Assembly: GCF_030651745.1 (NCBI RefSeq)
Contig: NZ_JAUSCC010000143.1
Location: 1 to 58,760 of the forward strand
Direction of reading: 5' to 3'
From: Methylophaga sp.
Lineage (GTDB): Bacteria; Pseudomonadota; Gammaproteobacteria; Nitrosococcales; Methylophagaceae
DNA length: 58,760 nucleotides
Both the position numbers and the translations under genes were made by a program. Below, piece after piece: positions 6,985 to 30,247 of this stretch. The first letter of the stretch is position 1; each line of letters opens with the position of its first letter. The notes below the pieces were generated by a model. It saw only the letters and a list, made by a program, of their open reading frames with translations, was not told the DNA's origin and did no database searches.

Positions 6985-6989
6985 CACCC

Positions 6990-10069: not shown

Positions 10070-10249
10070 TCAAGCAAAATAATCGGTAGCGCCAAACCAA
10101 TCTATCGTGTTTTGGTTTGCCGGAGCCGGTTTTTCACTGACCAGCTCGTCAAGGACATATTCCAGTCCATAAAAATTTTCATTATCGAAAGCCTGGTTCA
10201 TCGAATTGATAATATTACAATAGTAAGCATTGGGATTTTGGTTAGCCAT
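10070..10249 (-). CDS. Small acidic protein under a Kdp-like promoter (59 residues)
   Basis: The frame starts at ATG 10249 after an excellent AAGGAAGG ribosome site. The product (MANQNPNAYYCNIINSMNQA at the start, ending in DWFGATDYFA) is acidic, rich in N, aromatic residues and D/E, and has no membrane segment. No family is recognised. What stands out is its upstream region. The roughly 300-base leader leads back to a promoter (10405-10522) homologous to those of the kdp operon and of the gene at 18427-18789, so regulation by KdpE in response to K+ limitation or osmotic stress is likely. Codon use is ordinary. Confidence 0.55.
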   Translation of the reverse strand: MANQNPNAYYCNIINSMNQAFDNENFYGLEYVLDELVSEKPAPANQNTIDWFGATDYFA

Positions 10250-10404
10250 CTTTTACCTTCCTTTTACATGGATTGACTTGCTGAACTGATAATATGCAAG
10301 TAAACGAAAGACCAATAACTTACGAAACAAAAATGAGTGTCAGTTATTGATAGTTGTTAATCTGTACGTAACATCAGTTGCTAAGGCAAATCTATCTTAA
10401 TAAA

Positions 10405-10522
10405 TTACCTATAAACTTTGTGTAAAGATTTAGGGTAAAGATATAAAGATTTCATAAAGATTTATCAGCCGGAGAGAGTAAGTACAGCGTAGACAAATGG
10501 AATGTTTAGGCCGTTTGGGAAG
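10405..10522 (-). promoter_or_regulatory. KdpE-type promoter, copy at 10.4 kb
   Basis: Read on the minus strand, the region has repeated ATCTTTA(T/C) boxes between 10465 and 10415, spaced about 10-11 bases, and a TTAAGAT -10-like element near 10395. Upstream is a block conserved with 18929-18950 and 30225-30247 (plus strand GGAATGTTTAGGCCGTTTGG, 10499-10518). About 210 bases align with the region between kdpE and the 18427-18789 gene, down to the last bases of kdpE. Confidence 0.6.
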
Positions 10523-10936
10523 TAATTAACTGAATTCAGAATCCTACTTGGATAGGGAAATCGATTTTGAAAATCGCAGGGAGTTAGACTTCACGCCGGG
10601 AAATGGTAGGCAAAACAGCGCTGTCCATTCAGACTTTAATTCAAAGCCTTGCAAACTTCATCGGCTCAGTGCCTAACACCAGTGAATTAGTCCATTCCAG
10701 CGGCGCTTTTGAAGTGTTGCGAAACTCAATGGTTGCCAGATTATTTTTATAATTTTTTTACACTCGACTGAGTATAATCAAATTTGTCTAATTTTTCTTC
10801 ATAAACCCAGGGAGGCAAGGGACATAAATCTATTCCTTTGGCTAAGCGTTTTTGGGGGCGGTTTTAATCATCTGCCGTATAGACCTGCATCAATATTATT
10901 GGTATAGAAAATTCACTTTTTTGACAAAATAAAAAT
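10523..10936. other. Intergenic upstream of the proB-like gene
   Basis: The first part (to about 10615) still aligns with sequence just downstream of kdpE (AGTTAGACTT shared with the kdpE stop region). The rest is AT-rich, with TTTTTATAATTTTTTTACA near 10745, and holds no gene. No clear ribosome site is seen before the proB-like start at 10937. Confidence 0.45.
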
Positions 10937-12022
10937 ATGCGAATTGTACTAAAGCTAGGTAGCTCACTGCTCGATGGGAGCACCGGGATAAACCATATGC
11001 TCATTGACGAGCTTGCGAACAAGATAATCGGCATGACCGAGCACGAGTTCGCCATAGTCACATCGGGAGCGATATCGACCGGGATGAAGAAGCTCGGCAT
11101 GAGCGAGAAACCAAGGGATGTCGCAACGCTCCAGGCGCTCGCTGCGGTTGGCCAGAGTGACCTCATGAACGCCTACGAAGATGCGTTCAAGGACCGTAAG
11201 ATCCTTGCTCAAGTGCTACTCACGAATCATGATTTCTCAGAAAGGATGAAATACCTAAATATCAGGAACACCCTGAACGCGCTCCTTGCCCGCGGCATCA
11301 TCCCGGTCATCAACGAGAACGACACCGTCACGGTCATGGACATAAAGAAGGCCGCCTTCGGAGACAATGACACTCTCGCGGCCCATGTCTCGGTGGCCAT
11401 CGACGCCGATCTCCTTATCATCTTCACGAATGTTGATGGACTGTATGACCGGAACCCTAAAGCGCAAGGGGCCAAACTCATTCGCAAAGTCGAGAGCATC
11501 ACCGATGACCTGATCGGCATGTGTGACGGGGTCAGCGAGGCCGGGAGAGGAGGCATGCTCTCCAAGCTCCGGGCTGCCAGAATCGCGACCGAGGTGTCTG
11601 TCAAAGTTGTGGTTTGCGACGGGACCGCCAAAAAAGCCTTGAAAAAGGCTATCCATGAGGAGATAGGCACGGTTTTCATCCCTCGAACGATTCCGAAGAT
11701 GAACAATAGGAAACACTGGATCGCGTTTGCATCCGAGCCCAAAGGGCGCATTGTTGTTAATGAACGTGCAATGCAGTGCGCAATAGACAAGAGCTGCGGG
11801 ATAATACCGGCCGATATCCTTTCGGTCTTGGGTACGTTCGACAAGGGTGACGTTCTCGAGATTGCCTCGGGTGACGGCACTGTGCTCTGCAAGGGCATCA
11901 CCAACTATTTCTCGCATGAGCTGGAGAAAATAATGGGGAAATCCACCGAAGACATATTCAATGAACTCGGCTTTGCGTATTCCGAGGCCGTTTCCAGCCC
12001 GGATATGGCTGTTATGGAGTGA
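10937..12022 (+). CDS. proB: Glutamate 5-kinase-like protein with PUA domain
   Basis: The 361-residue protein has an amino-acid kinase domain (about residues 1-255) and a C-terminal PUA domain (about 270-350), as in E. coli ProB. Visible motifs are KLGSSLLDG at the phosphate-binding start, FAIVTSGAISTGMKKLG, VINENDTV, FGDNDTLAAHVSVAIDADLLIIFTNVDGLYDRNP, and the GRGGMLSKLRAA stretch. It should phosphorylate glutamate in proline synthesis. However, no proA is near, and the gene is followed eight bases later by a deacetylase-like gene. It uses many AAG, GAG, ATC and AGG codons, unlike its neighbours, and has no obvious ribosome site, so it is probably a recent transfer, perhaps with another substrate. 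Confidence 0.8.
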   Translation: MRIVLKLGSSLLDGSTGINHMLIDELANKIIGMTEHEFAIVTSGAISTGMKKLGMSEKPRDVATLQALAAVGQSDLMNAYEDAFKDRKILAQVLLTNHDFSERMKYLNIRNTLNALLARGIIPVINENDTVTVMDIKKAAFGDNDTLAAHVSVAIDADLLIIFTNVDGLYDRNPKAQGAKLIRKVESITDDLIGMCDGVSEAGRGGMLSKLRAARIATEVSVKVVVCDGTAKKALKKAIHEEIGTVFIPRTIPKMNNRKHWIAFASEPKGRIVVNERAMQCAIDKSCGIIPADILSVLGTFDKGDVLEIASGDGTVLCKGITNYFSHELEKIMGKSTEDIFNELGFAYSEAVSSPDMAVME

Positions 12023-12029
12023 GGTTAAG

Positions 12030-12407
12030 ATGAGCGATTCGCCAGAGGTCGGATTCGTTTACGACGACCGCTACCTGCAGCACAACCCAGGCTGTGAAAT
12101 GTTTTGGACCGCGCACGGCCCGATACCCGTGCCTTTTGTCGAACCTATCCTGCATCCGTCCAATTACCGGTTGGCGATGCGGACCAAGCATTTACTCGAT
12201 TTGGCCGGGCTTACCCCGCTCATGACGCGTATCGAACCGCGCCCGGCGACGATCGAAGAACTCACGGTATTCCATACATCTGAATACGTCGAACGCGTCC
12301 GGCAATTGTCGGTTAAAGGTTGCGGAGACGCGGGGAAACATGCGCCGGTCGGCCCAGGCAGCTATGAAATTGCCTTGTTAGCAGCGGGCGGCGCCATCAC
12401 GCCATAG
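12030..12407 (+). pseudogene. Truncated class II histone deacetylase-like protein
   Basis: The frame starts at ATG 12030 with GAGGTTAAG upstream, eight bases after proB. The first 124 residues match bacterial class II histone deacetylases/acetylpolyamine amidohydrolases (GFVYDDRYLQHNPG, HPSNYRLAMRTKHLL, FHTSEYVERVRQLS, VGPGSYEIALLAAGGAI). Family members have about 340-370 residues, and the zinc ligands lie after residue 130, so they are lost here. The break is exactly at the left inverted repeat of the recombinase element (12396), and the last three codons and the stop belong to the element. It cannot be an active deacetylase. Confidence 0.8.
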
Positions 12408-12424
12408 ACACAAAAGATAACTTT
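12396..12424 (+). repeat. Left inverted repeat of the recombinase element
   Basis: ATCACGCC (12396-12403), four variable bases, then ACACAAAAGATAACTTT (12408-12424). It matches the reverse complement of 14614-14641 at 25 or more positions. Confidence 0.8.
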
Positions 12425-12504
12425 GAATTTGAACGGCAGATTGAATTCAGTCGCTCAAATTCATTGCTTGACATGAGACGTAAAGGGTAATAAATATATG
12501 ACTC

Positions 12505-12834
12505 ATGACGCGATCCTCAAACACCGACAAAACCCACCGGCTGAATGCCGCATTCAACTTGCTGGCACAGGGTTACACCTTGGCCGAAGCGGCTGGAGCC
12601 TTGACCCAACAGTTTGGCTTGTCGCGCAGACAGGCTTACCGCTATCTTCAGGAAGCGCAGCAAATCGATGCGCCAGCCTTGGTCGCTTCACCCTCTATTC
12701 CGATCACTATCAAAATACCTGCGGATGTCGTGAAGCGACTTCGGTCGCATGCGCAAACCAGCGGCATGTCTATTGGCGAGATTGTGGCACATGCCATCGT
12801 CAGTTTTCTCGACAAGTTGCACCGCCATGGCTAA
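12505..12834 (+). CDS. Helix-turn-helix protein of the recombinase element
   Basis: The 109-residue protein has a homeodomain-like helix-turn-helix near the N-terminus (LNAAFNLLAQGYTLAEAAGALTQQFGLSRRQAYRYLQEA, about residues 12-50). A C-terminal ribbon-helix-helix-like part (IPITIKIPADVVKRLRSHAQTSGMSIGEIVAHAIVSFL, about 65-102) follows. Two DNA-binding modules in one small protein suit a regulator or accessory factor of the recombinase. The ribosome site is weak (AAAGGGTAAT, with a spacer longer than usual). Its stop overlaps the start of the next small frame, so these genes form a tight operon. Confidence 0.7.
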   Translation: MTRSSNTDKTHRLNAAFNLLAQGYTLAEAAGALTQQFGLSRRQAYRYLQEAQQIDAPALVASPSIPITIKIPADVVKRLRSHAQTSGMSIGEIVAHAIVSFLDKLHRHG

Positions 12835-13102
12835 TCGCCATCGGCGAAGTCATGAAATACAGTTGGAATTTGCTTTTGATCGTCTGCATGCCACTAAACT
12901 GGAACAAGTCTTTGCCATCCTGGTTCCGAACCGGGAACGCCGAATTGATGAATCCACAGGACTAAAAGGAGAACACCATGAAAATAGCCGCCATCTACGC
13001 CCGTGTCTCTTCGGATCAACAGAAGGAGGAGAAGACCATAGCCAGTCAGACGGCGGCGCTGATAGAATTTGCCCGCCAAGAAAATTACCAGGTACCGGAT
13101 GA
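12827..13102 (+). CDS. Small basic frame overlapping the recombinase start
   Basis: ATG 12827 overlaps the stop of the helix-turn-helix gene (ATGGCTAA). The first 50 residues (MANRHRRSHEIQLEFAFDRL, then KLEQVFAILVPNRERRI) look protein-like, with a basic start and an amphipathic helix. The frame then runs 125 bases into the recombinase gene in another frame, where the sequence loses sense. The gene may normally end sooner in relatives, or use overlap for translational coupling. No family name is known to me. Confidence 0.4.
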   Translation: MANRHRRSHEIQLEFAFDRLHATKLEQVFAILVPNRERRIDESTGLKGEHHENSRHLRPCLFGSTEGGEDHSQSDGGADRICPPRKLPGTG

Positions 13103-14675
13103 ATGGGTTTTCGAAGATGAAGGTTATAGTGGGGCCCATTTAATCAGGCCAGGGCTTGAGCGAATCAGGGATTTAGCCGCAGAAGGTCAAATCCAAGCGG
13201 TTTTAGCGCTGTCACCTGATCGCTTGAGCCGCAAATATGCCTATAAGGTTTTGCTTACTGAGGAGCTGGCCCGTCATGGGGTCGATATGGTATTCATCAA
13301 AGCACCACACTCAGGTACCCCGGAAGATCAATTGTTGTTGCAGTTCCAGGGGATGATTGCCGAATACGAGCGGGCGCAGATTCTGGAACGCTCACGGCGT
13401 GGCAAACGGCATCGAGCAAAACAGGGGGAAGTCAGCGTATTGAGTGGTGCGCCCTATGGTTATCGCTACATTCGTAAGACCGATGAGACAGCAGCTTACT
13501 ACGAAGTCATTGAAGCCGAAGCAGATGTGGTGCGCAAGGTTTTCAATCTCTACACAGTTGAAGGACTGAGCATTGGTGCTATTACCCGCCAGTTAACCGA
13601 CTTAGGTTTGCCAACCCGTAAACAAAAGGCCCGTTGGGAACGTTCCGTTATATGGGCAATGCTGCGTAATCCTGCCTACCAAGGTCGTGCCTGTTTTGGC
13701 AAAACGGGTATGGCGGCACGTCAACGCATTACCCGACCACTACGTTTACGCGGCGGCTTTGCAGAGTCAAATAGTGCTAGCCATGAGCGTCCACGCACGG
13801 AATGGTTAGAGATTCCTGTACCCGCTTTGGTCAGTGAGGAAACATTCGCCATGGCTCAGGAAAATTTGGACTACAACAAACAGCATGGGCCACGACGTAC
13901 CATTGAGCCCAGTATTCTCCAGGGAATGGTGCATTGTCGTCAGTGTAGCTATGCACTCTATCGAAGCTCAGCACGTACGTCAACACGCAAAATCTACTAC
14001 TATCGTTGCTCGGGTTCCGATGCCTATCGTCATGGCGGTAAAGCCATCTGTGATCAAAAACCCATTCGCCAGGATTTGCTTGATCAATTGGTTTGGGACG
14101 AAATTCTCCGTCTTCTGGAAGATCCGACACTCATCCAGAACGAGTTGAATCGCCGACTGGAAGCCGCCCGTGAATCCAGTCCAACCCAGCGGCGGCTGGA
14201 AACGCTAAACCGCGATTTGATTCGGGTGCGTAAAAGCATGGAGCTATTATTAACGGCCTACCAGGAAGAGTTGCTGTCGCTTGACGAACTTCGTGTCAGA
14301 ATGCCGCCATTGCGGCAACGAGAACAGGCTATGCAGGCAGAACTTCAAGCGATCAATCACCAAACAGCGGATCGTGCGGCGTATTTACAGCTTGCCGAAA
14401 CCCTAACGGCGTTTCTGGAACGCTTGCGCTCAAATGCCGATACCCTCGATATTGGTCAACGCCAACGAATTATGAGACTGCTGGTCAAAGAGGTGATTGT
14501 GGGAAAAGATTTGATTACGATTAAACATTCGATACCAGGACAGGCTGCACCATCGGGAGGTAATTCCCAATCGTCGAAATCGACTGCCCAGCATAATATG
14601 GCACAGACCGATAAAAGTTATCTTTTGTGTAAGGGCGTGATCGCCGCGATCTTAACCGTGTGTGGGAATTCCTAA
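12978..14675 (+). CDS. Large serine recombinase
   Basis: The 565-residue protein has an N-terminal resolvase domain (about 1-150) with the catalytic serine in YARVSSDQQ (residue 11) and the usual arginines in SPDRLSRKYAY and ERSRRGKRH. A recombinase domain follows (about 165-300; YGYRYIRKT, WERSVIWAMLRNPAYQGRA), then a zinc ribbon (CRQCSYALYRS to CSGSDAYRHGGKAICDQK, about 315-365) and a coiled coil. It should cut and rejoin DNA of the element through serine-linked intermediates. ATG 12978 has AAAAGGAGA upstream. The frame runs past the right repeat and takes its last dozen codons from flanking DNA. Confidence 0.9.
   Translation: MKIAAIYARVSSDQQKEEKTIASQTAALIEFARQENYQVPDEWVFEDEGYSGAHLIRPGLERIRDLAAEGQIQAVLALSPDRLSRKYAYKVLLTEELARHGVDMVFIKAPHSGTPEDQLLLQFQGMIAEYERAQILERSRRGKRHRAKQGEVSVLSGAPYGYRYIRKTDETAAYYEVIEAEADVVRKVFNLYTVEGLSIGAITRQLTDLGLPTRKQKARWERSVIWAMLRNPAYQGRACFGKTGMAARQRITRPLRLRGGFAESNSASHERPRTEWLEIPVPALVSEETFAMAQENLDYNKQHGPRRTIEPSILQGMVHCRQCSYALYRSSARTSTRKIYYYRCSGSDAYRHGGKAICDQKPIRQDLLDQLVWDEILRLLEDPTLIQNELNRRLEAARESSPTQRRLETLNRDLIRVRKSMELLLTAYQEELLSLDELRVRMPPLRQREQAMQAELQAINHQTADRAAYLQLAETLTAFLERLRSNADTLDIGQRQRIMRLLVKEVIVGKDLITIKHSIPGQAAPSGGNSQSSKSTAQHNMAQTDKSYLLCKGVIAAILTVCGNS
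14614..14641 (-). repeat. Right inverted repeat of the recombinase element
   Basis: AAAGTTATCTTTTGTGT (14614-14630) and GGCGTGAT (14634-14641), the reverse complement of the left repeat. It lies within the 3' end of the recombinase frame. Confidence 0.8.
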
Positions 14676-15169
14676 AGCTGGTGTTTCGCGACGTCAACCG
14701 CGAGACCGTCGAATACCAGCGTCCACGGCTGAAACAGCATTTTTTCGACATCTACGAAAAGGAAGGCATCGAGCAGCTTTTGTTCGAGTTGAAAAAAGGC
14801 GAAAAACATGAATTGGTCGGCTACGTCGAGTTCGCTTACGAAATCGTCGGTTCGGACAACTTTATGAATCACCGCTATTTCGCCAAACGGGACATGCGCC
14901 CGCTGTTCGTGGAAGAAATCGCCGTGCATCCGGGATACCACGGGCTGGGCATTGGTTCCTTCATCTTCGAGCAGATTGAGCACGCAGCGCGGCTGCGCGG
15001 TTGCACTCACATCGTGCTCGAGGTCGCCGAGAACAACGAACGAGCGCTGAAGTTTTACCGCAAACGCAACTTCATTAAACTCGACGCCGCAATCTTTCTG
15101 GCGAAGAAGTTGGATGTGGAGGCCGAGTTATTGAAGCCGCGCAAGATGACGCTTCGCAAAACGAAGTGA
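14642..15169 (+). pseudogene. GNAT acetyltransferase, N-terminus cut off
   Basis: The frame continues directly from the right repeat (RRDLNRVWEFLKLVFRDVNR) and encodes about 170 residues of a GCN5-related acetyltransferase. The acetyl-CoA binding part is clear: LFVEEIAVHPGYHGLGIGSFIFEQIE with the Q/RxxGxG-like loop near the middle, then THIVLEVAENNERALKFYRKRNFIKL. The frame is open without a good start; GTG 14660 is the only candidate and has no ribosome site. The missing N-terminus was probably removed with the rest of the deacetylase gene. It originally would have formed, with the proB-like and deacetylase genes, a small acetylation/deacetylation operon. Confidence 0.65.
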
Positions 15170-15360
15170 ATTGCCACCACTGCGTTCGTTCTCTACTATA
15201 TTGCGCAGAAATTGAACCATCGTGTTGGATTGAATACACAAGGCCGGACATCAGTTTTGTGTAGAACTTTCGGAAGTGAGCCAAGGGAATGCGATCGTTA
15301 CGGGGCTGAAGTCATTTGACAGGACTTCGCTTGCGCTCGGTTTCGAATGAAGAGTGGCAC
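15170..15360. other. Short intergenic stretch
   Basis: Between the GNAT remnant and the convergent HlyC/CorC gene. No gene or clear terminator hairpin with a T-run is seen. Confidence 0.5.
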
Positions 15361-16698
15361 TTACTCATCCTCACGCTTGCCGGGTGTTGCTTCATGCGAT
15401 GAGAACGGTTCTACCCCGATCCTGGAGACGATGAGTTTGTCCACACGATTTTGGTCCATGTCGACGATCTCAAACCGGAGGCCGTCACTGACGAATTGAT
15501 CCTCGACCTGCGGCACGCGCCCCAGGCACATCATGGCAAATCCGGCCAGCGTCCGGTAGGCCTGCATGCCCTCGCCAGGTAGCTTGTGATCGAGTTTCAT
15601 TGCCTCCCGAAAACGCTCAATCGGGATGTTGCCGTCAACCAGCCATGATCCGTCTTCCCTTCGCACGATTTCTGGCTGCAACTCGTCTTCGACACTCGCG
15701 ACATCGCCAACCAATGTCCCCATCACGTTATTTATCGTCACCAGTCCCTGAAGTTCCCCGTATTCATCGACCACCAAGGCGAGATGCTGGCGGTGTTTCT
15801 TGAAGGCTTCGAGCAATTCGATCATCGTCATGGTTTCCGGTACATAAAGCGGCTTGACTGCATCACTGGCGAAGTCGAAGGGCTTGCCTTCAAGGAAGGC
15901 GTCCAGTACAGACTTAGCCCGCAGCACACCTACCACCTCGCCGAGCCCACCCTTGCAGATCAGGAACCGCGAATGGCCGCTTCTCAGCAACTTTTGGCGA
16001 TTGGTCTCGAAGGAGTCACTCAGGTCGAAATAGACAATATCGCCTCGCGGTGTCATCACGCTCCTGATTGATTGATCATCCAGCCGGAAAATACGCGACA
16101 CCAGCGCCTGCTCGTGTTGCTCGAACACACCATCTTCTGCTCCCTGCTCCATGAGCACGTTGATCTCTTCCTTAGTAATGGGAGAGTGCACAGGTTCCCG
16201 CACTCCGAGCACCCAAAGCACCCTATCGGTAACGAAACTTATTAGCCGCACCAGCGGGAAGGCGATTGCCGAGATAACCTCCATCGGTCGCGCCATGGCG
16301 CTGGCGATGCCTTCCGGATTTAAAAGGGCCAAGCGCTTGGGCACAAGCTCGCCGAGGATCAGCGAGAAAAAGGCTATTCCCGTGACCGGGATCCAGAACG
16401 CCAGCAAGTCGGCGTAGGGCTGCAACCAAGCGATATGAGACAGGCTCTCGGCAACCTGCTCGGACAAGGTGGCTTCGCCCATTGCGCCGCTGAGAATGGC
16501 GATAACCGTGATGCCCAACTGGACGGTCGATAGAAAATTTGCGGGCTTATTGGCGAGGGCGAGCGCCCGGCCGGCACCTGTGCGGCCACCCTCGCTCAAT
16601 TGCTGCAAGCGTGCCTTGCGCGCAGACACAATCGCCATTTCCGACATGACGAAGACGCCGCTAAGGATGATCAAAAAGGCAATAACGAAGATAGTCAT
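15361..16698 (-). CDS. HlyC/CorC family membrane protein (DUF21-CBS)
   Basis: The 445-residue protein has the full architecture of the family. The DUF21 membrane domain (about 1-190) has helices such as IFVIAFLIILSGVFVMSEMAIVSARKARL, VQLGITVIAILSGAMGEATL and ITGIAFFSLILGELVPKRLALLNPE-like segments. A CBS pair (about 205-335; MTPRGDIVYFDL, ALVVDEYGELQGLVTINNVMGTLVGDV) and a CorC/HlyC domain (about 350-430) follow. Relatives export or protect against Mg2+, Co2+ or Na+, or resist polyamines; the old name hemolysin is misleading. It lies downstream of marC on the same strand, in a region full of ion transport genes. Confidence 0.88.
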   Translation of the reverse strand: MTIFVIAFLIILSGVFVMSEMAIVSARKARLQQLSEGGRTGAGRALALANKPANFLSTVQLGITVIAILSGAMGEATLSEQVAESLSHIAWLQPYADLLAFWIPVTGIAFFSLILGELVPKRLALLNPEGIASAMARPMEVISAIAFPLVRLISFVTDRVLWVLGVREPVHSPITKEEINVLMEQGAEDGVFEQHEQALVSRIFRLDDQSIRSVMTPRGDIVYFDLSDSFETNRQKLLRSGHSRFLICKGGLGEVVGVLRAKSVLDAFLEGKPFDFASDAVKPLYVPETMTMIELLEAFKKHRQHLALVVDEYGELQGLVTINNVMGTLVGDVASVEDELQPEIVRREDGSWLVDGNIPIERFREAMKLDHKLPGEGMQAYRTLAGFAMMCLGRVPQVEDQFVSDGLRFEIVDMDQNRVDKLIVSRIGVEPFSSHEATPGKREDE

Positions 16699-16776
16699 AC
16701 AGTGTTTTCAAAATGAAATAATTACGGTGATATTTCTACATAAAAGAGGCTGGGCAAGACAGGACAAAATCAGGGC

Positions 16777-17418
16777 TCACGCCGGTTGCCCCAATATAGG
16801 GAAAACAGCGGCCAATCCTTTGGTGATAAACTCCACCGCGATGGATAAAATAATCAAACCAAATACGCGAGTAATCACATTCATACCGGTTGTCCCCAGC
16901 CAATCCTCAATCTTTTCCGCCATCAACAAACAGAGCAACACTGCCAAAGCTACCGTAGCGATAACGCCAGCTGCCAGCACATCATAGTTCCAGGAAGGAT
17001 TCAGGTTATGGTTGACAATAACGGTACTCATGGCACCGGGACCGCTCAGCAGAGGAATTGCCATCGGTACGACGGCGATAGACTCTTTATCAACCGACTC
17101 TACCCGCTCCTCCGGCGTATTTCGGGAGCGGTCATGCGACGCTTTGACCATGGAAATCCCCATAAACAGAACGACAATACCGCCCGCAATTTGAAACGAG
17201 GGAATACCTATGCCGAAAATTTTTAGCCAAAAACTGCCGCCTATATGGGCAATCAGCAGCGCAACACCGACTGACATCGCACAAACCCAGGCGATACGCT
17301 GCCGCTCCGCGGAACTTCGATGTTCAGTCAGGCTTATGAAAAGCGGGATGGCGCCGATAGGGTCTACCACCGGCAACAGCCCAGCCAGCAGTTTGATGTA
17401 TGCTTCTAATTCCACCAT
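16777..17418 (-). CDS. MarC family integral membrane protein
   Basis: The 213-residue protein has about six membrane helices and the MarC/YchE signature: AGLLPVVDPIGAIPLFISLT near the N-terminus, FQIAGGIVVLFMGISM near residue 75, and PMAIPLLSGPGAMSTVIV near residue 125. The transported substrate, if any, is unknown; the early link with multiple antibiotic resistance did not hold for E. coli MarC. Its start lies 21 bases after the dapA stop, so it is probably translated from the dapA transcript. Confidence 0.88.
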   Translation of the reverse strand: MVELEAYIKLLAGLLPVVDPIGAIPLFISLTEHRSSAERQRIAWVCAMSVGVALLIAHIGGSFWLKIFGIGIPSFQIAGGIVVLFMGISMVKASHDRSRNTPEERVESVDKESIAVVPMAIPLLSGPGAMSTVIVNHNLNPSWNYDVLAAGVIATVALAVLLCLLMAEKIEDWLGTTGMNVITRVFGLIILSIAVEFITKGLAAVFPILGQPA

Positions 17419-17439
17419 CAGTATTACTCCACGGCAGGG

Positions 17440-18390
17440 TCATAAAAATTTCGTTAAGACTTGGTCGTAAGGAACATGATGCGCGGAAAGCCGGGTTACC
17501 ATCATCTGCAACTCATAACAAAGCGTTGCTGCCTTTTCTTTCGATAAATCCACCAAGGGTTTCCGGCATGATCCAACCTTCATACCCGCACGGTTCATTA
17601 CCGATTTAATAGGCGCCGGATTTGAACCCGAGCTAAGTAAAGCGCAACAAAAACCATGAACAGCATGCATGATGATCCTGGATTGATTCAAGTCCGAGCG
17701 CGTGAAACTGGCAACCAGTTCGTCCATCACCCGAGGCATAATGTTTGCCGCCACTGAAAACACACCGACTCCTCCTACTGAAAGTATGGGCAGCGTCAAC
17801 GAATCATCGCCGGAAAATACCGAGAAGGGCCTTCCAAGCTGTGAAGATCGGTAGATAACCTCAGTAATTTGATCAAGATCGCCGTTTGATGCCTTTAATC
17901 CGGCTATTGACGGACACTTTTCGCAGAGTTCCATGATGAGGTCAGCCCCAAGATCGATTCCGGTTCGGCTGGGAATATTATAAAGAATGAGCGGAATACC
18001 GACTTTATCCAGTTCCTGAAAATGCGCAAGCAAACCTTCCGGACTGGGTCTATTGTAGTAAGGCGTTACCACCAGACATGCATCGGCGCCCAGTTCTGCC
18101 GCACGCTCCGTCAATCTGAGCGCTTCCCGCGTGCTGTTCGAACCGGTGCCGGGAATAACTTTGAGCGTTGTATTTCGGGCTGCTTCAATTACCGTAGATA
18201 CGACTACTTCCCACTCTTCTTTAAGCAGCGTTGGTGATTCGCCAGTCGTGCCGCAAGGCACAATCGCCGCAGTTTTGCTGTCGGCGTGCAGCTTGACCAG
18301 TTCAGCGAGTTTGTCCTTGTTGACAGATTGCTCCGCATCATCAACAAAGGGGGTAATAAGCGCTACAACAGAACCTTTCAATAATTTCAT
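17440..18390 (-). CDS. dapA: 4-hydroxy-tetrahydrodipicolinate synthase
   Basis: DapA condenses pyruvate with aspartate semialdehyde in the lysine and diaminopimelate pathway, in the cytoplasm. The 316-residue TIM barrel shows PCGTTGESPTL near residue 47, the catalytic tyrosine in LILYNIPSRTG (about 135) and the Schiff-base lysine in IAGLKASNGD (about 165). It is somewhat longer than the 292 residues of the E. coli enzyme because of the C-terminus. A dapA next to marC and a Kdp-type promoter is not a usual setting, so it may be a second copy or a related aldolase such as a sugar-acid lyase. It probably shares its transcript with the gene 36 bases upstream. Confidence 0.85.
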   Translation of the reverse strand: MKLLKGSVVALITPFVDDAEQSVNKDKLAELVKLHADSKTAAIVPCGTTGESPTLLKEEWEVVVSTVIEAARNTTLKVIPGTGSNSTREALRLTERAAELGADACLVVTPYYNRPSPEGLLAHFQELDKVGIPLILYNIPSRTGIDLGADLIMELCEKCPSIAGLKASNGDLDQITEVIYRSSQLGRPFSVFSGDDSLTLPILSVGGVGVFSVAANIMPRVMDELVASFTRSDLNQSRIIMHAVHGFCCALLSSGSNPAPIKSVMNRAGMKVGSCRKPLVDLSKEKAATLCYELQMMVTRLSAHHVPYDQVLTKFL

Positions 18391-18426
18391 GGTATTTTTT
18401 GGTGAGAGGTTTCAGAACCGTGCCGC

Positions 18427-18789
18427 TTAGAACTTACGTTCAGCGCAATTGGCAAGTATCTCTGCTTCATCGAAAGTCGCATTACAATTTCTTACGATGT
18501 TTTTCGGCAAACAGGTTTGGTACTGTTTAAATCCCGCCTGCGAAACAAGCATGACCTCAATATCAGGAATGCCACAGAGATATTTCAAAAGACTCAATGT
18601 CGCATTGCCAGTCGATTTAATATAGATTTTCGGCTTTTCACACCGGCTTTTTATAAACTTAGAAAGCTCATTGAGTCCATCTATCGTATTTTGGAATCGC
18701 CGTAAAAACACGGTTTTTCCCTCGCTACGCTGAACGAGTAACCATGCATTTTCATCATTATCAAGACCAAAAAAGGTTTGAAGTGTCAT
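18427..18789 (-). CDS. Stand-alone IS110-like RuvC-fold domain protein
   Basis: The 120-residue protein aligns in pattern with the N-terminal DEDD domain of IS110 transposases: GLDNDENAWLLVQ (first Asp, residue 9), FQNTIDGLNELSKFI, then YIKSTGNATLSLLKYL where transposases have EATG, then VMLVSQAGFKQYQ and FDEAEILANCAE where they have KTDxxDA. The second acidic residue is replaced by Lys-Ser, so DNA cleavage is unlikely. The C-terminal serine domain of IS110 is absent and the frame ends cleanly. With its own conserved Kdp-like promoter it looks like a domesticated domain rather than a broken transposon. A decayed copy is the alternative. Confidence 0.55.
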   Translation of the reverse strand: MTLQTFFGLDNDENAWLLVQRSEGKTVFLRRFQNTIDGLNELSKFIKSRCEKPKIYIKSTGNATLSLLKYLCGIPDIEVMLVSQAGFKQYQTCLPKNIVRNCNATFDEAEILANCAERKF

Positions 18790-18950
18790 ACGGTTTTTTT
18801 CACCTTGTTGTTAAGACAGGCCTATCTTAATCAATTACGCATAAAATTTTTGTAAAGAGTTACGGTCACTATATAAAAATTTTATAAAAATAGTTCAGCT
18901 GGTGAAAGTAAGACCCGCGTAAACAAACGGGATATTTCGACCGTTTGGGA
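18790..18950 (-). promoter_or_regulatory. KdpE-type promoter, copy at 18.9 kb
   Basis: On the minus strand the region shows ATTTTTATA, ATTTTTATATAG and CTCTTTACAAAAATTTTA boxes (18900-18845) and a TTAAGATAG -10-like element near 18825. The upstream block (plus strand GGGATATTTCGACCGTTTGG, 18929-18948) matches blocks at 10499 and 30225. It lies just after the kdpE stop and should drive the IS110-like gene and perhaps dapA-marC. Confidence 0.6.
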
Positions 18951-19015
18951 GATAATTAACTGGATTTAGGACCGACCCGGATGGAGTAACCGGTTTTGAA
19001 ACCAACCTCAGGAAG

Positions 19016-19711
19016 TTAGACTTTAAGCCGGTAGCCTACACCCGATTCCGTCAATATATACTGAGGCTGAGCCGGGTCGGTTTCCAGTTTCTGTCTGAGT
19101 TGACTCATGTAAATCCGCAGATAATGCGAATTATCCCTATAAGAGGGCCCCCAGACTTCCTTGAGCAGGTATTGATGCGTCAATACCTTGCCGGCATTTT
19201 TAATCAGCACGGACAAAAGCCGGTACTGAATTGGCGTGAGATGGACTTCCCTATCGCCGATAACGACCTGACGCTTCAGTAAATCGACTTTTAGCGCTCC
19301 GGTAGTAAATACACCGCTTTGATCCTGCGTCGGACTACTTACCGAATGGCGCATTTCTACCCGTATCCTGGCAAGCAATTCACCTAAACCGAAAGGCTTG
19401 GTCAGGTAATCGTCGGCGCCGGCATCCAGCGCATCGATTTTATGCTGCTCGGCGCTGCGTGCGGACAAAATAATGATAGGCATGACCGACCATTCCCGGA
19501 TGGTCTTGATAACGTCAATACCGTCCATGTCTGGCAAGCCCAGATCCAGGATAATGAGGTCAGGTTTGCGTACACCTGCCTCAACAATGCCTTGCCGGCC
19601 AGTTTCTGCTTCGAACACCCTGAAGCCATGAACACCAAGGCCGGTTCGTAAAAACAGGCGTATCGCCGGATCATCCTCTATAACAACAATAATAGGGCTG
19701 GTATTAGTCAT
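19016..19711 (-). CDS. kdpE: Kdp operon response regulator KdpE
   Basis: The 231-residue OmpR-type regulator has a receiver domain (1-115) with acidic pocket EDD (12-14) and phospho-acceptor Asp56 in LIILDLGLPDMDG. The signal residues IILSARS and Lys near 105 are in place, and a winged-helix domain (about 135-228; VHLTPIQYRLLSVLIKNAGKVLTHQYLLKEVWG, then YLRIYMSQLRQKLE) binds DNA. Phosphorylated by KdpD, it activates kdpFABC when K+ is scarce. It follows kdpD with a 63-base gap holding a small hairpin. The candidate targets are the three T-rich promoters described here. Confidence 0.93.
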   Translation of the reverse strand: MTNTSPIIVVIEDDPAIRLFLRTGLGVHGFRVFEAETGRQGIVEAGVRKPDLIILDLGLPDMDGIDVIKTIREWSVMPIIILSARSAEQHKIDALDAGADDYLTKPFGLGELLARIRVEMRHSVSSPTQDQSGVFTTGALKVDLLKRQVVIGDREVHLTPIQYRLLSVLIKNAGKVLTHQYLLKEVWGPSYRDNSHYLRIYMSQLRQKLETDPAQPQYILTESGVGYRLKV

Positions 19712-19735
19712 GGCTAACTACTCTCCTCTCCCCAA

Positions 19736-19755
19736 CCCTCTCCATCAGGAGAGGG
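19736..19755. repeat. Hairpin between kdpD and kdpE
   Basis: CCCTCTCC-ATCA-GGAGAGGG, a perfect 8-bp stem with a tetraloop and no T-run. It may pause or partly end transcription, or stabilise the kdpD message, or be a dispersed repeat. Confidence 0.6.
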
Positions 19756-19774
19756 AGTAACATCGATATACGAC

Positions 19775-22516: not shown

Positions 22517-22552
22517 GATGATGATCTCGCGTATCGTGTATGCATTGTTAAT

Positions 22553-23542: not shown

Positions 23543-23556
23543 AAATGTCTCCCTCT

Positions 23557-23742
23557 TTAACTCAATTGTGGAACGTAATCCAATCGGTATGCACTTTGTC
23601 CCAATCCTGAAGTGCCGAACACATTCTCCGAGGGGATGATGGCTTCGAGCGCCGGGCACACGACCTCTCGCGGCCCGGCGGAAATCACGTAGAACTGGAA
23701 AAGGTTTTTACCCAAGCCTTCGCTCAAGATTTTGGCGAACAA
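23557..23742 (-). pseudogene. Fragment of a HAD-type hydrolase
   Basis: About 45 codons read KNLFQFYVISAGPREVVCPALEAIIPSENVFGT in pieces, which resembles the internal part of bacterial haloacid dehalogenase-like phosphatases (QFYVISAAP followed by ALEGIVPPDHIYGTE). Neither the DxD motif nor the C-terminal part is present, and the frame ends soon after in unrelated sequence. It is best read as the relic of a gene that once stood between corA and the sensor-like gene. Confidence 0.5.
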
Positions 23743-23833
23743 CTTGACAAGTCCTTGCGGATGTATTCACGCCATGTCTTGATGACCGGATAAGGCTACC
23801 CCTATCGGGTCGCTTTGAACTGCTGAGCCGTTA

Positions 23834-24769
23834 TTATTCAATCCCCCCTTTTTTTTTCAAACGGGGAAGCGAATAATTACCCTGAGCTTGAACTGTCTCT
23901 TGGAGGTTGGTTAGAATCTCCTGGCATTGCGAAGAAATCAACCTTAGTTTACCCAGCGATAAATCCGCTGACTTGATATTCGTATTCATCCGGGAAAGCT
24001 TCAAGACCTCACCCGTCAAGTTCATGAATCGTTCGTATGCAGTTTCTGCATTCTTCAGATCATCATTATTTTTTAGATCAGCAATACCACGAAGAGATAT
24101 AAGCGCTTTCTTGACTGATTCATCATAAGACTTGATGCTTTGCTCGATTTTATCCATGTCTTGATCATCCGCTTCTTCAATATGAGGCTTGTGGAGAGCA
24201 AATATATTCAGGCCGGCAGTGAGTGCCTCATACGTGAGCATGACTGCCTCATTACACTGGCTGCCGTGCGTGTTCCGGTGGATGAGGCGGTTCAAGCTCG
24301 CTTCAAAATACTCCATTTCTTGAGCACATTGCGTCGCGGAGATCTTTTGGGCCTTGAGATTGGTGTTTTGAATGGCAAGATCCAGAATGGTTTCATCTAA
24401 TTTTCTATAGTGTGCCCAACAAACAGTGAATTCATTGATCATCTCAGTCTCTCCAGGGAGCTTCTCCTGAAGGATGATGGCTTCGATTTCCTTCCGGCTG
24501 CTTTCTACGCCATCGGCCGCTTGGCGAGCCTGGGCGGCAAATGCTTCCGATGCCTCATCGGTAATGGCTAGAACGGCGTTCTTCTCGGCCTCAATAGCTT
24601 CGAGAAGATGACTCCTCATCGTTGAGAGTAGATCAAGCTTGATAAACTTCGTCTCGAAAGGATTGTATCTCTCGCCATAATAGCCATAGAGCGTAGCTGC
24701 TACCAAAACAACAAGGGTCAGTACCCATGGTAAGTAAATATATAATCTTCTCTCTGTCTTTTCTTCCAT
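23834..24769 (-). CDS. Membrane-tethered helical-bundle protein
   Basis: The 311-residue protein starts with a short cytoplasmic stretch and a single membrane helix (about 9-31; YLPWVLTLVVLVAATLYGYY). The rest is almost all alpha-helical, with heptad-like stretches and cysteines near 125, 155 and 180. The layout resembles the four-helix-bundle sensing part of chemoreceptors (4HB_MCP), but no second membrane helix, HAMP or signalling domain follows. It would project into the periplasm. It starts 16 bases after the K+ channel gene, so it is part of the kdp transcript. It may sense osmotic state or modulate the channel; this is inference. Confidence 0.6.
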   Translation of the reverse strand: MEEKTERRLYIYLPWVLTLVVLVAATLYGYYGERYNPFETKFIKLDLLSTMRSHLLEAIEAEKNAVLAITDEASEAFAAQARQAADGVESSRKEIEAIILQEKLPGETEMINEFTVCWAHYRKLDETILDLAIQNTNLKAQKISATQCAQEMEYFEASLNRLIHRNTHGSQCNEAVMLTYEALTAGLNIFALHKPHIEEADDQDMDKIEQSIKSYDESVKKALISLRGIADLKNNDDLKNAETAYERFMNLTGEVLKLSRMNTNIKSADLSLGKLRLISSQCQEILTNLQETVQAQGNYSLPRLKKKGGIE

Positions 24770-24785
24770 ACCTCAGCCTCTCGCC

Positions 24786-25265
24786 TTAGTCTATGTTCGA
24801 TGACAACTGCTTCTCCAGCGCCTTCAGCCGCTCGTGCAGTCGGGCCAACTCGGCTAGAATCCGGTCTTCCCCGGTTTGAATGTGACCCGCCTTCTGTTCG
24901 ATTTGCAGCATATCAGCTCCCAAAGCATCCATATTTCTGCCGATCAGAGCGACCGAAACCAGGGCGGTGAACAGTGAAAAGAATACCAGTCCAAACAATA
25001 TCAGCCCCGCTGCCAGCAAACGCCCGAAAAAGGAGATCGGAACCACGTCACCAAAGCCCACATGAGTCATCGTCACCCAGGCGGACCAAATGCCATCGAA
25101 GGGCGACTTAATATTGGGATCAATCAGGAAAAGTATCAGTCCGACAGCCAAGGTCACCATAATTGCAAGCAAAACCAGATAGCCCAGAGTCTTAACCCTG
25201 AAGAGTTCGACCCTGAGGTTGCTCCCCCAATGAATTGCATTACGACATTCTTCTAGCCAACGCAT
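24786..25265 (-). CDS. Two-helix potassium channel-like protein
   Basis: The 159-residue protein has two membrane helices (about 28-48 and 83-108) with a pore loop between them carrying the selectivity filter GFGD (THVGFGDVVP, about residue 70). This marks it as a 2-TM ion channel of the potassium type; the usual filter is GYGD, and GFGD is a known variant. The C-terminal 45 residues form a coiled coil (AELARLHERLKALEKQL) that may set the tetramer. No RCK/TrkA-N domain is fused. It lies 22 bases after kdpC on the same strand. A channel in a Kdp pump operon could balance membrane potential or release K+ after stress. Confidence 0.78.
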   Translation of the reverse strand: MRWLEECRNAIHWGSNLRVELFRVKTLGYLVLLAIMVTLAVGLILFLIDPNIKSPFDGIWSAWVTMTHVGFGDVVPISFFGRLLAAGLILFGLVFFSLFTALVSVALIGRNMDALGADMLQIEQKAGHIQTGEDRILAELARLHERLKALEKQLSSNID

Positions 25266-25287
25266 ATATTTTGTCCTTCAGTCTCGT

Positions 25288-25863
25288 CTAAAGAATGGCA
25301 TCCAGCGCCAAATTTAATGTCAGGACGTTAACCCTCGGCTCTCCCAGAAAGCCCCACTGACGGGATTCAGTGTTAGCATCAATCAGGGCGCGGAGTTTTT
25401 CAGGTTTCATATTACGAGCCTTGGCCACGCGATTAATTTGATAATCCGCTGCTGCAGGACTGATATGTGGATCCAGCCCGCTACCCGATGCCGTAATCAG
25501 ATCAACCGGAACCGGAGCCTTATTATCAGGATCGGCTACTTTTAACGCCTCAATACGGGCTTTAACGGCATCTACCAGAGCCGGATTGGTCGGACCCAGG
25601 TTTGAACCGCTGGAAGCGCCGGCATTATTGGGGAAAGGTCCTGTTGCGGAAGGCCGTCCCCAAAAATGACCGGGGCTGCTGAACGACTGTCCGATCAGAC
25701 TGGAGCCCGTCAGCTTGCCACCATTGTCTGTCAACTGGCTGCCGTTTGCCTGAGAGGGAAACAGAAGCTGTGCCAGACCCGTCACTACGGCGGGATAAAT
25801 CACGCCGGTTAACACACTCAATAGAACAAACAAAATAACCGCCGGTTTGAAATGTTTAATCAT
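25288..25863 (-). CDS. kdpC: K+-transporting ATPase subunit KdpC
   Basis: The 191-residue subunit has one N-terminal membrane helix (about 8-30; [29 protein letters not shown]) and a periplasmic domain with family signatures [29 protein letters not shown] and GSNLGPTNP, and ends with [22 protein letters not shown]. It stabilises the KdpFABC complex. The gene follows kdpB by 11 bases and has normal length. Confidence 0.95.
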
Positions 25864-25874
25864 TGCAATCTCCT

Positions 25875-27956
25875 TTAAACTAGACCCAGCGTGACCAGAA
25901 ACAGGTCAATCGCCTTGATGCCGATAAATGGAACAATCAACCCGCCTACGCCATAAATCAGCAAATTGTTTTGCAGCAGTGTGGCGGCGCCGACCGGCTT
26001 GTACTTGATGCCTTTTAAGGCCAGTGGAATCAGCGCGACAATAATCAGCGCATTGAAAATCACGGCCGATAAAATCGCGCTCGCCGGCGTTGCGAGATGC
26101 ATTACATTCAATACGTTAAGCACCGGATAAGTGGTTGCGAACGCGGCCGGAATGATTGCGAAATATTTCGCCACGTCATTGGCGATACTGAATGTCGTTA
26201 AGGCGCCGCGCGTCATCAACATCTGCTTGCCGGTTTCGACGATCTCGATTAACTTGGTCGGGTTCGAATCGAGATCCACCATATTGCCGGCTTCCTTGGC
26301 CGCCTGGGTGCCGCTGTTCATCGCAACCGCGACATCGGCCTGGGCCAGTGCCGGCGCATCGTTGGTGCCGTCTCCGGTCATCGCGACCAGACGCCCCTCA
26401 GCCTGGTATTTCCTGATTAGCTTCAGCTTCTCCTCTGGTGTAGCTTCGGCGAGAAAATCATCGACACCGGCCTCGGCAGCAATCGCGGCAGCAGTCAACC
26501 GATTATCGCCGGTAATCATGATGGTCTTGATGCCCATCTGACGCAATTCGGCAAAACGTTCCTTGATCCCGCCTTTGACGATATCCTTGAGTTCGATGAC
26601 GCCCAGCACGCGCGCGTCTTCAGCAACCACCAGCGGGGTACTGCCGCGACGCGCTACCTCATCGACCAATCTCTGGAACTCCGGCGGAAATTTGCTGCCC
26701 AGCCCGCCCAGCCGTTCAACCTGAATACGGATGGCATCGGCGGCACCCTTGCGAATCTGTCGGCCGTCAATATTAACGCCGCTCATCCGGGTTTGGGCGC
26801 TGAAATGCACAAAAGTGGCTCCCAGCGCATGCACGTCCCGTTCTCTGAGCCCGTATCTCTGCTTAGCCAAAATCACAATACTGCGTCCTTCCGGGGTTTC
26901 GTCAGCCAGTGAAGCCAATTGCGCGGCATCAGCCAGTTCTTTATCGGTTACGCCTTTAACGGGTATAAAAGCGGAGGCTTGCCGATTACCCAAAGTAATC
27001 GTACCTGTTTTGTCCAGCAGCAATACATCGATGTCGCCAGCCGCTTCTACGGCCCTGCCGGAGGTGGCAATCACGTTTTTCTGCATCATCCGGCCAATTC
27101 CGGCTACCCCGATGGCAGATAACAAACCGCCAATGGTTGTCGGGATCAGACAGACCAGCAACGCCACCAGAACGGTAATCGTGATCGGTTGTCCTGCGCC
27201 CGAGGTTGCCACGGCATACAAGGAGAACGGCAGCAAGGTCACGGTAGCCATCAGGAAGACCAGGGTCAATGCGACCAGCAGAATGGTCAAGGCAATTTCA
27301 TTAGGCGTTTTCTGCCGTTTTGCGCTTTCCACCATGGAAATCATCCGGTCCAGAAAAGCTTCGCCCGGATTGGCGGTAATACGCACGACCAGCCAGTCCG
27401 ATAACACGCGCGTACCGCCGGTCACCGAACTGAAATCGCCGCCCGATTCGCGGATTACAGGGGCACTTTCGCCGGTAATCGCGCTTTCGTCCACTGAGGC
27501 AACGCCTTCAATGACTTCGCCATCACCGGGAACAAAATCGCCGGCTTCTATCAAAACCACATCACCGCGCCGCAAACCGGAGCCTTCCACTTTGGAATAA
27601 TTGGCACCATAACGCGGCTCATCCAGTTTTTTCGCCGCAATATCACGCTTGGCGCTCCGCAAAAATGCGGCTTGCGCCTTGCTGCGCCCTTCGGCGACGG
27701 CCTCGGCGAAATTGGCGAACAGTACCGTTCCCCATAACCATAACGTGATGGCCAAAATGAAATTGGCGGGCTCTTCCCCTTTTCCGTCCAGAGCCAGCAC
27801 CCAAAGCAGGGTAGTCAGGAGACTGCCTATATAAACGACAAACATCACCGGATTTTTCCATTGCTGCCGTGGAGTCAGCTTCCGGAATGAATCCACCAAG
27901 GCTGCACCCAGGATGTCCCGATCGAACAAAGACGTTGAAACAGATTTTTGACTCAT
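25875..27956 (-). CDS. kdpB: K+-transporting ATPase catalytic subunit KdpB
   Basis: KdpB is the P-type ATPase that energises K+ uptake. The 693-residue protein shows the TGES loop ([13 protein letters not shown]), the phosphorylated aspartate in DKTGTIT (about residue 315), the nucleotide-binding part, and the hinge [20 protein letters not shown]. Several membrane helices lie at the N-terminus and around 220-260 and 570-680. ATG 27956 is chosen for its TTGGAGAA ribosome site; the frame extends five codons further. The gene is intact. Confidence 0.96.
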
Positions 27957-27976
27957 GAAATTCTCCAATTAACTGA

Positions 27977-29785
27977 TTATTTAGCCCCGATCATCTGAAG
28001 ATGTTCGACCACAGGCCCCAGAGCCAGGGCAGGTACAAACGTCAGCGCACCGACCATGAGTACGACTCCGATCAATAACGCCACAAACAGCGGGGTATGC
28101 GTCGGTAAGGTACCGAGACCGACCGGCACTTTCTTCTTCTCGGCCAGGGAACCCGCGATTGCGAGTACCGGTACGGCCAGCCAGTAACGGGAAAACAGCA
28201 TAGCTAGACCCAACATCGCGTTATAGAAGGGCGTATTCGCCCCAAACCCGGCGAATGCACTGCCGTTGTTGTTACCCGCCGACGAGAACGCATACAGCAC
28301 TTCGCTGAAACCGTGTGCGCCCGGATTGAAGACCGATGCCTTGCCGACCTCGACCATGATTGCGAGCGCTGTACCGCCCAATACGACCAGCGGCGGAATC
28401 AGAATAGCGATCGCGGCCATTTTCATCTCGTAGGCTTCGATTTTTTTACCCAGATATTCGGGCGTGCGGCCTATCATTAAACCGGACACAAACACCGCGA
28501 CAATCGCAAACATGATCATGCCGTAAAGGCCCGAGCCGACGCCGCCGTAAATCACTTCACCCAATTGCATCAGCCACATCGGCACCATGCCTCCGATCGG
28601 CGTGAAGGAGTCGTGCATGGAGTTTACCGAGCCATTAGAGGCCGACGTGGTAGCAACCGCCCACAGCGCGGAGTTGGTAATTCCGAACCGGGTCTCCTTG
28701 CCTTCCATGTTGCCGCCGGACTGGCTGACGTTTGCCGATTGATCGACGTTCAATGCTGCCAGAGCAGGATTACCGCTTTGCTCCGCCGGTACCGCGACAA
28801 AAATCAGCGCGACAAAAATCAGTGTCATCGCCGCCAGAATCGCCCAGCCTTGCCGGGTGTCACCCACCATCATGCCGAAGGTATAGCACAGCGCGCCCGG
28901 GATAAGCAGTATCGACAGCATCTCCAGAAAATTGCTTAACGGCGTCGGATTTTCCAAGGGATGCGCCGAGTTGACGTTGAAAAAGCCGCCGCCGTTGGTG
29001 CCGAGTTGCTTGATGGCTACCTGGGAAGCCGCTGGCCCTACCGCTATGACTTGCTCTTTGACTTCGACCGGTTCCATGACCGGCTTGCCGTTGACGTCTT
29101 GCAAGGCCTGACCGTCTGCGCCCAGTTTAGGTTGTTCATAAGTGACTGTTTCGACTAGCGGTACAGCTTGATAGGGACTAAAAGTCTGCACCACGCCCTG
29201 TCCTACCAGTACCAAAGCCAGGATCAGCGATAGCGGCATCAGGATGTACAACGTGCTGCGGGTGAGGTCCACCCAGAAATTGCCGATGGTATTTGCATTG
29301 CGCCGGGTAAATCCGCGGATCAATGCGACCAGCACTGCCATGCCCGCTGCGGCGGAGACGAAGTTCTGCACTGTCAGACCCAGCATCTGCGTTAGATAAC
29401 TCATCGTTGTTTCGCCGCCATAGCCCTGCCAGTTGGTATTCGTGGCAAAACTGGCCGCCGTGTTGAATGATGAGTCAGGGCTGACGCCGGGCAGGTTCTG
29501 CGGATTAAAAGGCAGGGAGGCTTGCAGGCGTTGCAGCGCAAAGACCGCCAGCGCACCCAGAAGATTAAAGACCAAAAAACCGATGGCGTAATCGGTCCAG
29601 CGCATTTCCTCTTCGGGATTCACGCCGCTTAGGCGATAGATCACTCTTTCGACCGGCGCCAATAAGCGGTTCAAACCCACGGACTCGCCCTCATAGACTC
29701 TGGCCATATACCAGCCTAGCGGCTTTGCCAAGGCGATCAGGGTAACGACATAAAATAGTATTTGAACATAACTGTTACTTGTCAT
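27977..29785 (-). CDS. kdpA: K+-transporting ATPase channel subunit KdpA
   Basis: The 602-residue subunit forms the high-affinity K+ path in the inner membrane. All four filter-like regions of the SKT superfamily are present: [10 protein letters not shown] (about residue 115), [12 protein letters not shown] (about 255), [12 protein letters not shown] (about 375) and [11 protein letters not shown] (about 495). About ten membrane helices are seen. The ATG at 29785 overlaps the stop of kdpF (TGATGA), giving translational coupling. Confidence 0.96.
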
Positions 29786-29874
29786 CAGAATTTCTCCGGA
29801 TAAAACAACGCGGCAACCAGGTAAACGAAAATCGCCAGCGCCAGTACGCCACTTAACAAATAAACCCAGCTCAT
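29785..29874 (-). CDS. kdpF: K+-transporting ATPase small subunit KdpF
   Basis: The 29-residue peptide [20 protein letters not shown] followed by AALFYPEKF is a textbook KdpF: one membrane helix and the typical LFYPEKF end. It stabilises the KdpABC complex. The start at 29874 has AAGGGGGCA upstream and overlaps the stop of the preceding small frame; the stop overlaps the kdpA start. Confidence 0.92.
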
Positions 29875-29963
29875 GACTGCCCCCTTAATTTTTCACAGGC
29901 ATAAACCAGAGCGACGGTGACGGCAAAAAAAACAAGCGTCAGTAGAAGATATACACTATCCAT
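29871..29963 (-). CDS. Small membrane protein upstream of kdpF
   Basis: A 30-residue frame (starting [20 protein letters not shown]) encodes one membrane helix followed by [10 protein letters not shown]. It begins after a GAGGTGG ribosome site and its stop overlaps the kdpF start (ATGA). Similar tiny frames are found before kdpF in several bacteria but are usually unannotated. It may be a further accessory peptide of the Kdp complex; this is inference from position. Confidence 0.7.
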
Positions 29964-30039
29964 AAAACCACCTCACATAAGACGACCAAAACTAATCGTT
30001 GATTACAGAATCTTTGTTAAAACACTAGCGTGCAGTCTA

Positions 30040-30247
30040 CTCTGGAAAGGTGTAAAAAAACTGTAAAAATTTAAGCTGGCGATGTAAAAAAAATGTTAGC
30101 TTTTCAGGGTTCTGTCACAATTATTTAATGGCCTTAAGTAGCCACATATTTGCTGACAAAGTTATCTTGCTAAAACCATGAACCGCTTATAAGAGGGAAT
30201 ATTTTCCTCGGAAAATAATAATGTGGGCTGTTTCGATCGCTTGGGGA
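30040..30247 (-). promoter_or_regulatory. kdp operon promoter with KdpE-like boxes
   Basis: Read on the minus strand, the sequence has TTTTTTTTACATC (30093-30081), then AAATTTTTACAG and TTTTTTTACACC (30072-30049), which closely resembles the E. coli KdpE operator around TTTATACTTTTTTTACA. A -10-like TAGACT follows near 30040. Upstream lies a block (plus strand GGGCTGTTTCGATCGCTTGG, 30225-30244) shared with the promoters at 10.4 and 18.9 kb. Confidence 0.7.

Follow-up and report, generated by a model that had tools for sequence, protein, structure and literature searches.

Organisation of the kdp Locus

The 58,760-nt contig NZ_JAUSCC010000143.1, referred to below as the window, carries a kdp locus for K+ uptake and two minus-strand promoter regions, A and B, which resemble targets of the response regulator KdpE and precede genes other than kdpFABC. 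The minus-strand order is kdpF-kdpA-kdpB-kdpC, a K+ channel gene, a gene for a 311-aa protein, corA, kdpD, kdpE, IS110L, dapA, and marC. Region B lies in front of IS110L, a gene of 120 aa, while A is located in front of a 59-aa gene (orf59), and the kdpF promoter is designated K. Because the KdpE of the window is 85–93% identical to its nine best matches, which come from Methylovulum, Methylobacter, and other Methylococcales, its sequence assigns the window to a gammaproteobacterial methanotroph similar to Methylovulum or Methylobacter. Comparisons drew on 237 genomes from the family to which Methylovulum miyakonense (G007) belongs (G and L codes denote genomes and loci), and several gene names at matches in these relatives come from reading the translations by eye.

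The kdpE gene (19016..19711, minus strand) has KdpE as its best NCBIfam model, with 312.5 bits, under the equivalog cut-off of 325 yet at the top of 97 families, and it matches the KdpE structure 4kny at E 3e-83. R193, R200, and T215, which PMC3264566 gives as DNA contacts of E. coli KdpE, are retained according to a by-eye reading of the 4kny alignment (numbering offset 2). The encoded protein is therefore predicted to be able to read a KdpE operator.

Two Paralogous Promoter Regions

Regions A (10377..10599) and B (18807..19031), both delimited by blastn on the minus strand, are true paralogues. They share 75.7% identity over 226 nt (E 2.9e-42), and their Smith-Waterman score is 175 as compared to a maximum of 34 across 300 shuffles. 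B starts with the final 16 bases of kdpE (19016-19031) and ends 17 nt short of the IS110L start codon; the alignment takes in these 16 bases, so that A contains a vestige of the 3′ end of kdpE. An alignment of about 210 bases including the end of kdpE, noted in the initial annotation, is hereby confirmed.

Both regions follow a common plan: two TTTAYR-N5-TTTAYR pairs located 32 bp apart, then N10, then TAAGAT. Candidate operators were ranked in the window, on both strands, with a matrix derived by expectation maximisation from the sequences preceding kdpF at 29 loci of relatives (the kdpF-only matrix), in which the window was left out and the kdpF coding sequence excluded; these represent 29 of the 30 kdpA loci fetched (one upstream region was too short) from 114 genomes with KdpA. 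In A, operator 1 (TTTATGAAATCTTTATA, 10442..10458) has rank 3 with 9.3 bits and operator 2 (TTTACACAAAGTTTATA, 10410..10426) rank 11 with 4.6 bits, and the core alignment places the probable −10 element, TAAGAT, at 10394..10399. In B, operator 1 (TTTATAAAATTTTTATA, 18872..18888; rank 13, 3.7 bits) is followed after 32 bp by operator 2 (TTTACAAAAATTTTATG, 18840..18856; rank 6, 7.0 bits) and, 10 bp behind the latter, by the probable −10 element TAAGAT (18824..18829), all on the minus strand. In 1000 shuffles of their own upstream regions, the score of A was reached by 12 and that of B by 21. The pattern TTTAYR-N5-TTTAYR-N10-TAAGATA, with at most two mismatches, occurs in the window twice, at A and B, where shuffles expect 0; being derived from A and B themselves, it demonstrates rarity and not function.

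The kdpF promoter has the same operator layout, two TTTATA/TTTACA-like repeats spaced by 5 bp. Its operator, TTTACA-N5-TTTACA (30051..30067, minus strand), ranks first by the kdpF-only matrix with 34.1 bits and fits the E. coli KdpE operator, TTTATA-N5-TTTACA (PMC3264566), as had been noticed initially. The probable −10 element of kdpF, TAGACT (30034..30039, minus strand), represents a conserved column among 30 aligned promoters of relatives and stands 11 bp behind the operator; this distance is 10 or 11 bp in the kdpF promoters of relatives and in distant IS110L promoters. The initial annotation had considered all three promoters homologous, which is correct for A and B only: alignment of the kdpF region with them gave scores of 21 and 23, within the range of the shuffles (means 20.0 and 19.4, maxima 31 and 28), and three-way homology was rejected. 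The kdpF promoter and A/B thus have a common operator architecture, while descent is not demonstrable.

A 22-nt block reported together with the boxes was indeed found at all three places, starting at 10520, 18950, and 30246 on the minus strand, the sole positions in the window with at least 17/22 matches to the B block. The copy upstream of kdpF (30225..30246) has 17/22 matches, reached by 0 of 2000 shuffles, whereas no such block precedes kdpF in any of 28 relatives (at best 14/22). In both A and B the block falls beyond the limits of the conserved core. A separate 29-nt repeat, 90% alike, occurs at 23847-23875 and 30303-30331, one copy being upstream of kdpF.

Conservation of the Core in Relatives

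The core is present in 10 of the 237 genomes, and 13 copies were aligned: the two from the window and eleven from elsewhere, one of which precedes a broken gene. Conservation reaches 93% in the half-sites and 96% in the −10 element, as compared to 85% in the repeat spacers, 74% in the other columns, and 79% in the other A/T columns, and a half-site mask peaks in its own register (0.93). A third target behind the core was not readable: remnants that by eye look like a transposase come after the core in G075, and in G070 the contig ends at a start codon behind it.

A sequence-only profile (R1) was built from 22 kdpF and 8 distant IS110L promoters and run on 16 genomes, with 150 candidates scored per genome. 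The training sites are 22 of 25 distinct kdpF sites, left after removal of duplicates and of kdpF sites scoring below 18 bits, and 8 of 9 IS110L sites, taken from 11 distant loci; the kdpF sites of G083, G011, and G143 and the IS110L site of G213 were omitted. R1 is not independent of the IS110L promoters, while the kdpF-only matrix is. At E < 0.02, R1 gave 28 matches, 14 at training sites and 14 elsewhere, when about 0.3 would be expected by chance from the stated, rough E-values. Eleven of the 14 non-training matches have a connection with kdp or K+: three precede kdpA (G083, G203, and G064) and one a kdpA-like fragment recognised by eye in G099; others stand before kdpD and IS110L (G213), a K+ uptake permease of PF02705 (G133), and a small protein ahead of the K+ channel (G050, G064, and a decayed copy in G002), and the last is at a gene of the G099 contig that carries kdp. 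The other three (G128, G083 C255, and G068) have no K+ link. In the window R1 assigned E 6e-12 to kdpF, 6e-4 to a site facing a proB-type gene, 0.15 to A, and 0.66 and 1.4 to B.

The small protein ahead of the K+ channel starts with MN(S/N)KFIKK (L238 in G050, L248 in G064, decayed L122 in G002), looks exported, and is preceded by a KdpE-type promoter of its own; it matched no Pfam family.

IS110L and dapA

IS110L (18427..18789, minus strand) is a relic of an IS110 RuvC domain and probably opens a transcription unit shared with dapA (17440..18390, minus strand; Pfam DHDPS), which follows after a 36-nt gap, may be co-transcribed, and is located near kdp genes in several relatives too. All 19 carriers of IS110L encode KdpA, as compared to 114 of the 237 genomes overall, and in 16 of them kdp genes lie within 12 kb. 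Since IS110L resides in the kdp locus of relatives, its position ties it to K+ uptake, and the initial statement that the downstream genes were never linked with K+ uptake does not hold for it.

The best KdpE-type site in the 150 nt upstream of IS110L is found at about −68 to −74 or −100 to −106 in 19/19 loci, with p ≤ 0.05 in 15/19, and it keeps its distance from the start across 32–83% protein identity. The ratio of nonsynonymous to synonymous substitution rates (dN/dS) relative to the window is less than 0.6 in all seven IS110L comparisons, picked among the closer relatives, which indicates purifying selection. In 76 of 78 database homologues the length is 115–132 residues, the search being limited to proteins 0.55–1.75 times the query length, so that full IS110 transposases could not show up. 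A broken copy occurs in G005.

The protein has the IS110-type RuvC (RNase H) fold of the recombinases IS621 and ISCro4 and aligns only with residues 5-117 of IS621, that is, the RuvC domain. Unlike these enzymes, it stands alone at 120 aa, with no coiled coil and no Tnp domain with catalytic Ser (described in PMC11208158 for IS621), and stops where the RuvC domain ends. Its DEDD active site is incomplete: in a weak alignment (E 0.011) the EATG of IS621 corresponds to KSTG, Lys being aligned to E60, while the D102/D105 region lies outside this alignment and was judged by eye.

orf59 and Its Unusual Promoter

The family of orf59 (10070..10249, minus strand) is matched in 52 of the 237 genomes at E ≤ 0.01. 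It is under purifying selection, with dN/dS relative to the window below 0.6 in all ten comparisons, also made with closer relatives. KdpA is encoded in 35 of the 52 genomes (p 0.001); orf59 itself is not tied to Kdp. Its usual upstream region has a direct repeat, TTCAG-N6-TTCAG, at −92 to −135 in 27 of 30 loci (e.g., L124-L150), fetched out of 59 matches in the 52 genomes; this could perhaps be the operator of a second response regulator. Among the loci examined, the KdpE-type core precedes orf59 in the window and G099 alone (1/30 fetched), and in the other upstream regions a KdpE-type site with p ≤ 0.05 was found in 1/29 (250 nt, 300 shuffles).

G099 has the order kdpD-kdpE-corA-core-orf59-core-IS110L, with both core–gene pairs side by side, and its sequence is 83% identical to A plus orf59 of the window over 402 bp. 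We read this similarity as suggesting that the promoter swap at orf59 predates the split of the two lineages; alternatively, a transfer between them may have taken place.

Between the core and orf59 lies a decayed 92-nt insert (10286..10377, minus strand) similar to miniature inverted-repeat transposable elements (MITEs), which begins at the end of the A/B homology (10377) and is 77–80% identical to repeats in three other genomes. Two of these are MITE-like 93-nt copies with intact inverted ends, CTGATGTTACG/CGTAACATCAG (L265, 311-403, and L266, 1468-1560), whereas the copy in the window has one decayed end and makes up most of the gene leader. The predicted structure of the 59-aa protein has a predicted local distance difference test value of 55, too low for use.

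Discussion

The duplicated promoter region is conserved over 13 copies and stands before two unrelated small genes. In the most probable reading, A and B both go back to a single promoter cassette that phosphorylated KdpE would bind and activate, with B driving IS110L and A driving orf59. Control of two non-kdp promoters by KdpE, as proposed initially, is the best reading in view of the kdpF-only matrix, the conservation, the retained contact residues, and the R1 matches at K+ genes. Each region would have two KdpE operators (6-bp direct repeats spaced by 5 bp), which, being 32 bp apart, would face about the same side of the DNA. The nearer one would end 10 bp before the −10 element, and since it occupies the −35 position, KdpE most likely replaces the −35 element. 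PhoB-type activators take the place of −35. From B, transcription would enter IS110L and, over the 36-nt gap, perhaps dapA. We suppose that a segment with the kdpE end and the core was duplicated, that A then came to drive orf59 by a promoter swap, and that the MITE-like insert entered between the core of A and orf59. Similarly to the E. coli kdpFABC promoter, 6-bp direct repeats TTTATA/TTTACA spaced by 5 bp occur together with a KdpE homologue having the same contact residues; the differences are the tandem operator pair, the distance of 10 bp from its nearer member to the −10 element, and the position before genes other than kdpFABC.

Several observations weigh against this interpretation. 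The sites of A and B have 3.7–9.3 bits as compared to 34 for kdpF and alone would not be conspicuous genome-wide; all sites of this kind are favoured by A-T richness, and a shift by one or two columns still leaves the half-site mask at 0.92. Upstream of IS110L, the site is not significant in G064, G148, G002, and G133 (277, 193, 96, and 51 per 1000 shuffles) and is borderline in G203 and G134 (50 and 47). The relatives are not mutually independent. E. coli KdpE is catalogued as a single-target regulator (PMC8249747), although chromatin immunoprecipitation–exonuclease and expression data add three genes (PMC7657598). Finally, A adjoins DNA that is possibly foreign or chimeric (a Micrarchaeota-like proB, a serine recombinase, and mobile-element genes). 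Should the contig be a chimera, another methanotroph genome may be the source of A; the nature of A would be unchanged because G099 has the core and orf59 together.

The most serious rival, which we consider improbable, is that the core serves another regulator of the OmpR/PhoB family, its KdpE likeness resulting from a common repeat layout and A-T richness. Repeats of 11 bp are used by several regulators of this family, so another member could have the same layout; moreover, the core half-sites are mostly TTTATA/TTTATG while kdpF has TTTAC(A/G) here, and the usual orf59 promoter has a different 11-bp repeat, TTCAG-N6-TTCAG. However, the first half-site of E. coli KdpE is TTTATA, the TTTAC form occurs at the same place in distant IS110L promoters, and the IS110L genes are located in the kdp locus. 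We see little chance that both regions are duplicated debris, B being the stretch between kdpE and dapA with an IS110 fragment in decay and A its functionless translocated copy. The useless kdpE tail in A, the broken IS110L copy in G005, and the transposase, serine recombinase, and MITE-like insert of the region would fit such an origin; concentration of conservation in the repeats and −10, the low dN/dS of both genes, the uniform length of IS110L homologues, and the constant distance from site to start are at odds with it. The conserved upstream region might also be an IS110 bridge RNA and no promoter, which is hardly credible: the single Rfam match in 9500-31000 (E 0.23) is located elsewhere, the protein matches the RuvC domain of IS621 only, the conserved columns are those of the repeats and −10, and at A this region is followed by an unrelated gene.

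The putative KdpE control of A and B leads to a broader proposal, to which we give even chances: a catalytically dead, RuvC-only relic of an IS110 bridge-RNA recombinase was domesticated in methanotrophs as a K+-starvation protein run by KdpE, and KdpE promoters move as cassettes and capture genes such as orf59, forming a regulon and not one operon. If so, the cell would have retained a transposase domain within a locus for ion homeostasis, and the KdpE regulon, described for E. coli as one operon, would be wider in a group with cultured strains, in which this can be tested. The hidden regulon envisaged in the initial annotation is retained for orf59 in that a KdpE-type promoter is present, and restricted in that it represents a local swap. 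Among the papers listed on Kdp in methanotrophs, on KdpE-proB, and on domesticated IS110, titles and abstract openings mention none of these targets.

Features Adjacent to Region A

A strong KdpE-like site (10746..10762, plus strand; 17.7 bits, rank 2, reached by 0 of 1000 shuffles) faces a proB-type gene for glutamate 5-kinase (10937-12022, plus strand), and its membership in the regulon is doubtful. The best named relatives of this gene are Micrarchaeota (79% identity to Candidatus Bilamarchaeum), with 95% to a metagenome protein; a match is present in 216/237 genomes of the family, with 36–40% identity among the matches listed. We do not claim proB as a third KdpE target, since with a Micrarchaeota-like gene an archaeal-type promoter or a chimeric contig is possible; the region may reflect gene transfer or an assembly chimera.

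On the plus strand, a short open reading frame similar to histone deacetylases (profile positions 6-90 of 298) precedes a large serine recombinase (12978-14675), the two spanning 11961-14675. On the other side of A, a transposase gene is located at 7948-8766, and the genes in 1-7000 (AcaB, DUF3577, RadC, DUF6876, and DUF932) recall an integrative conjugative element.
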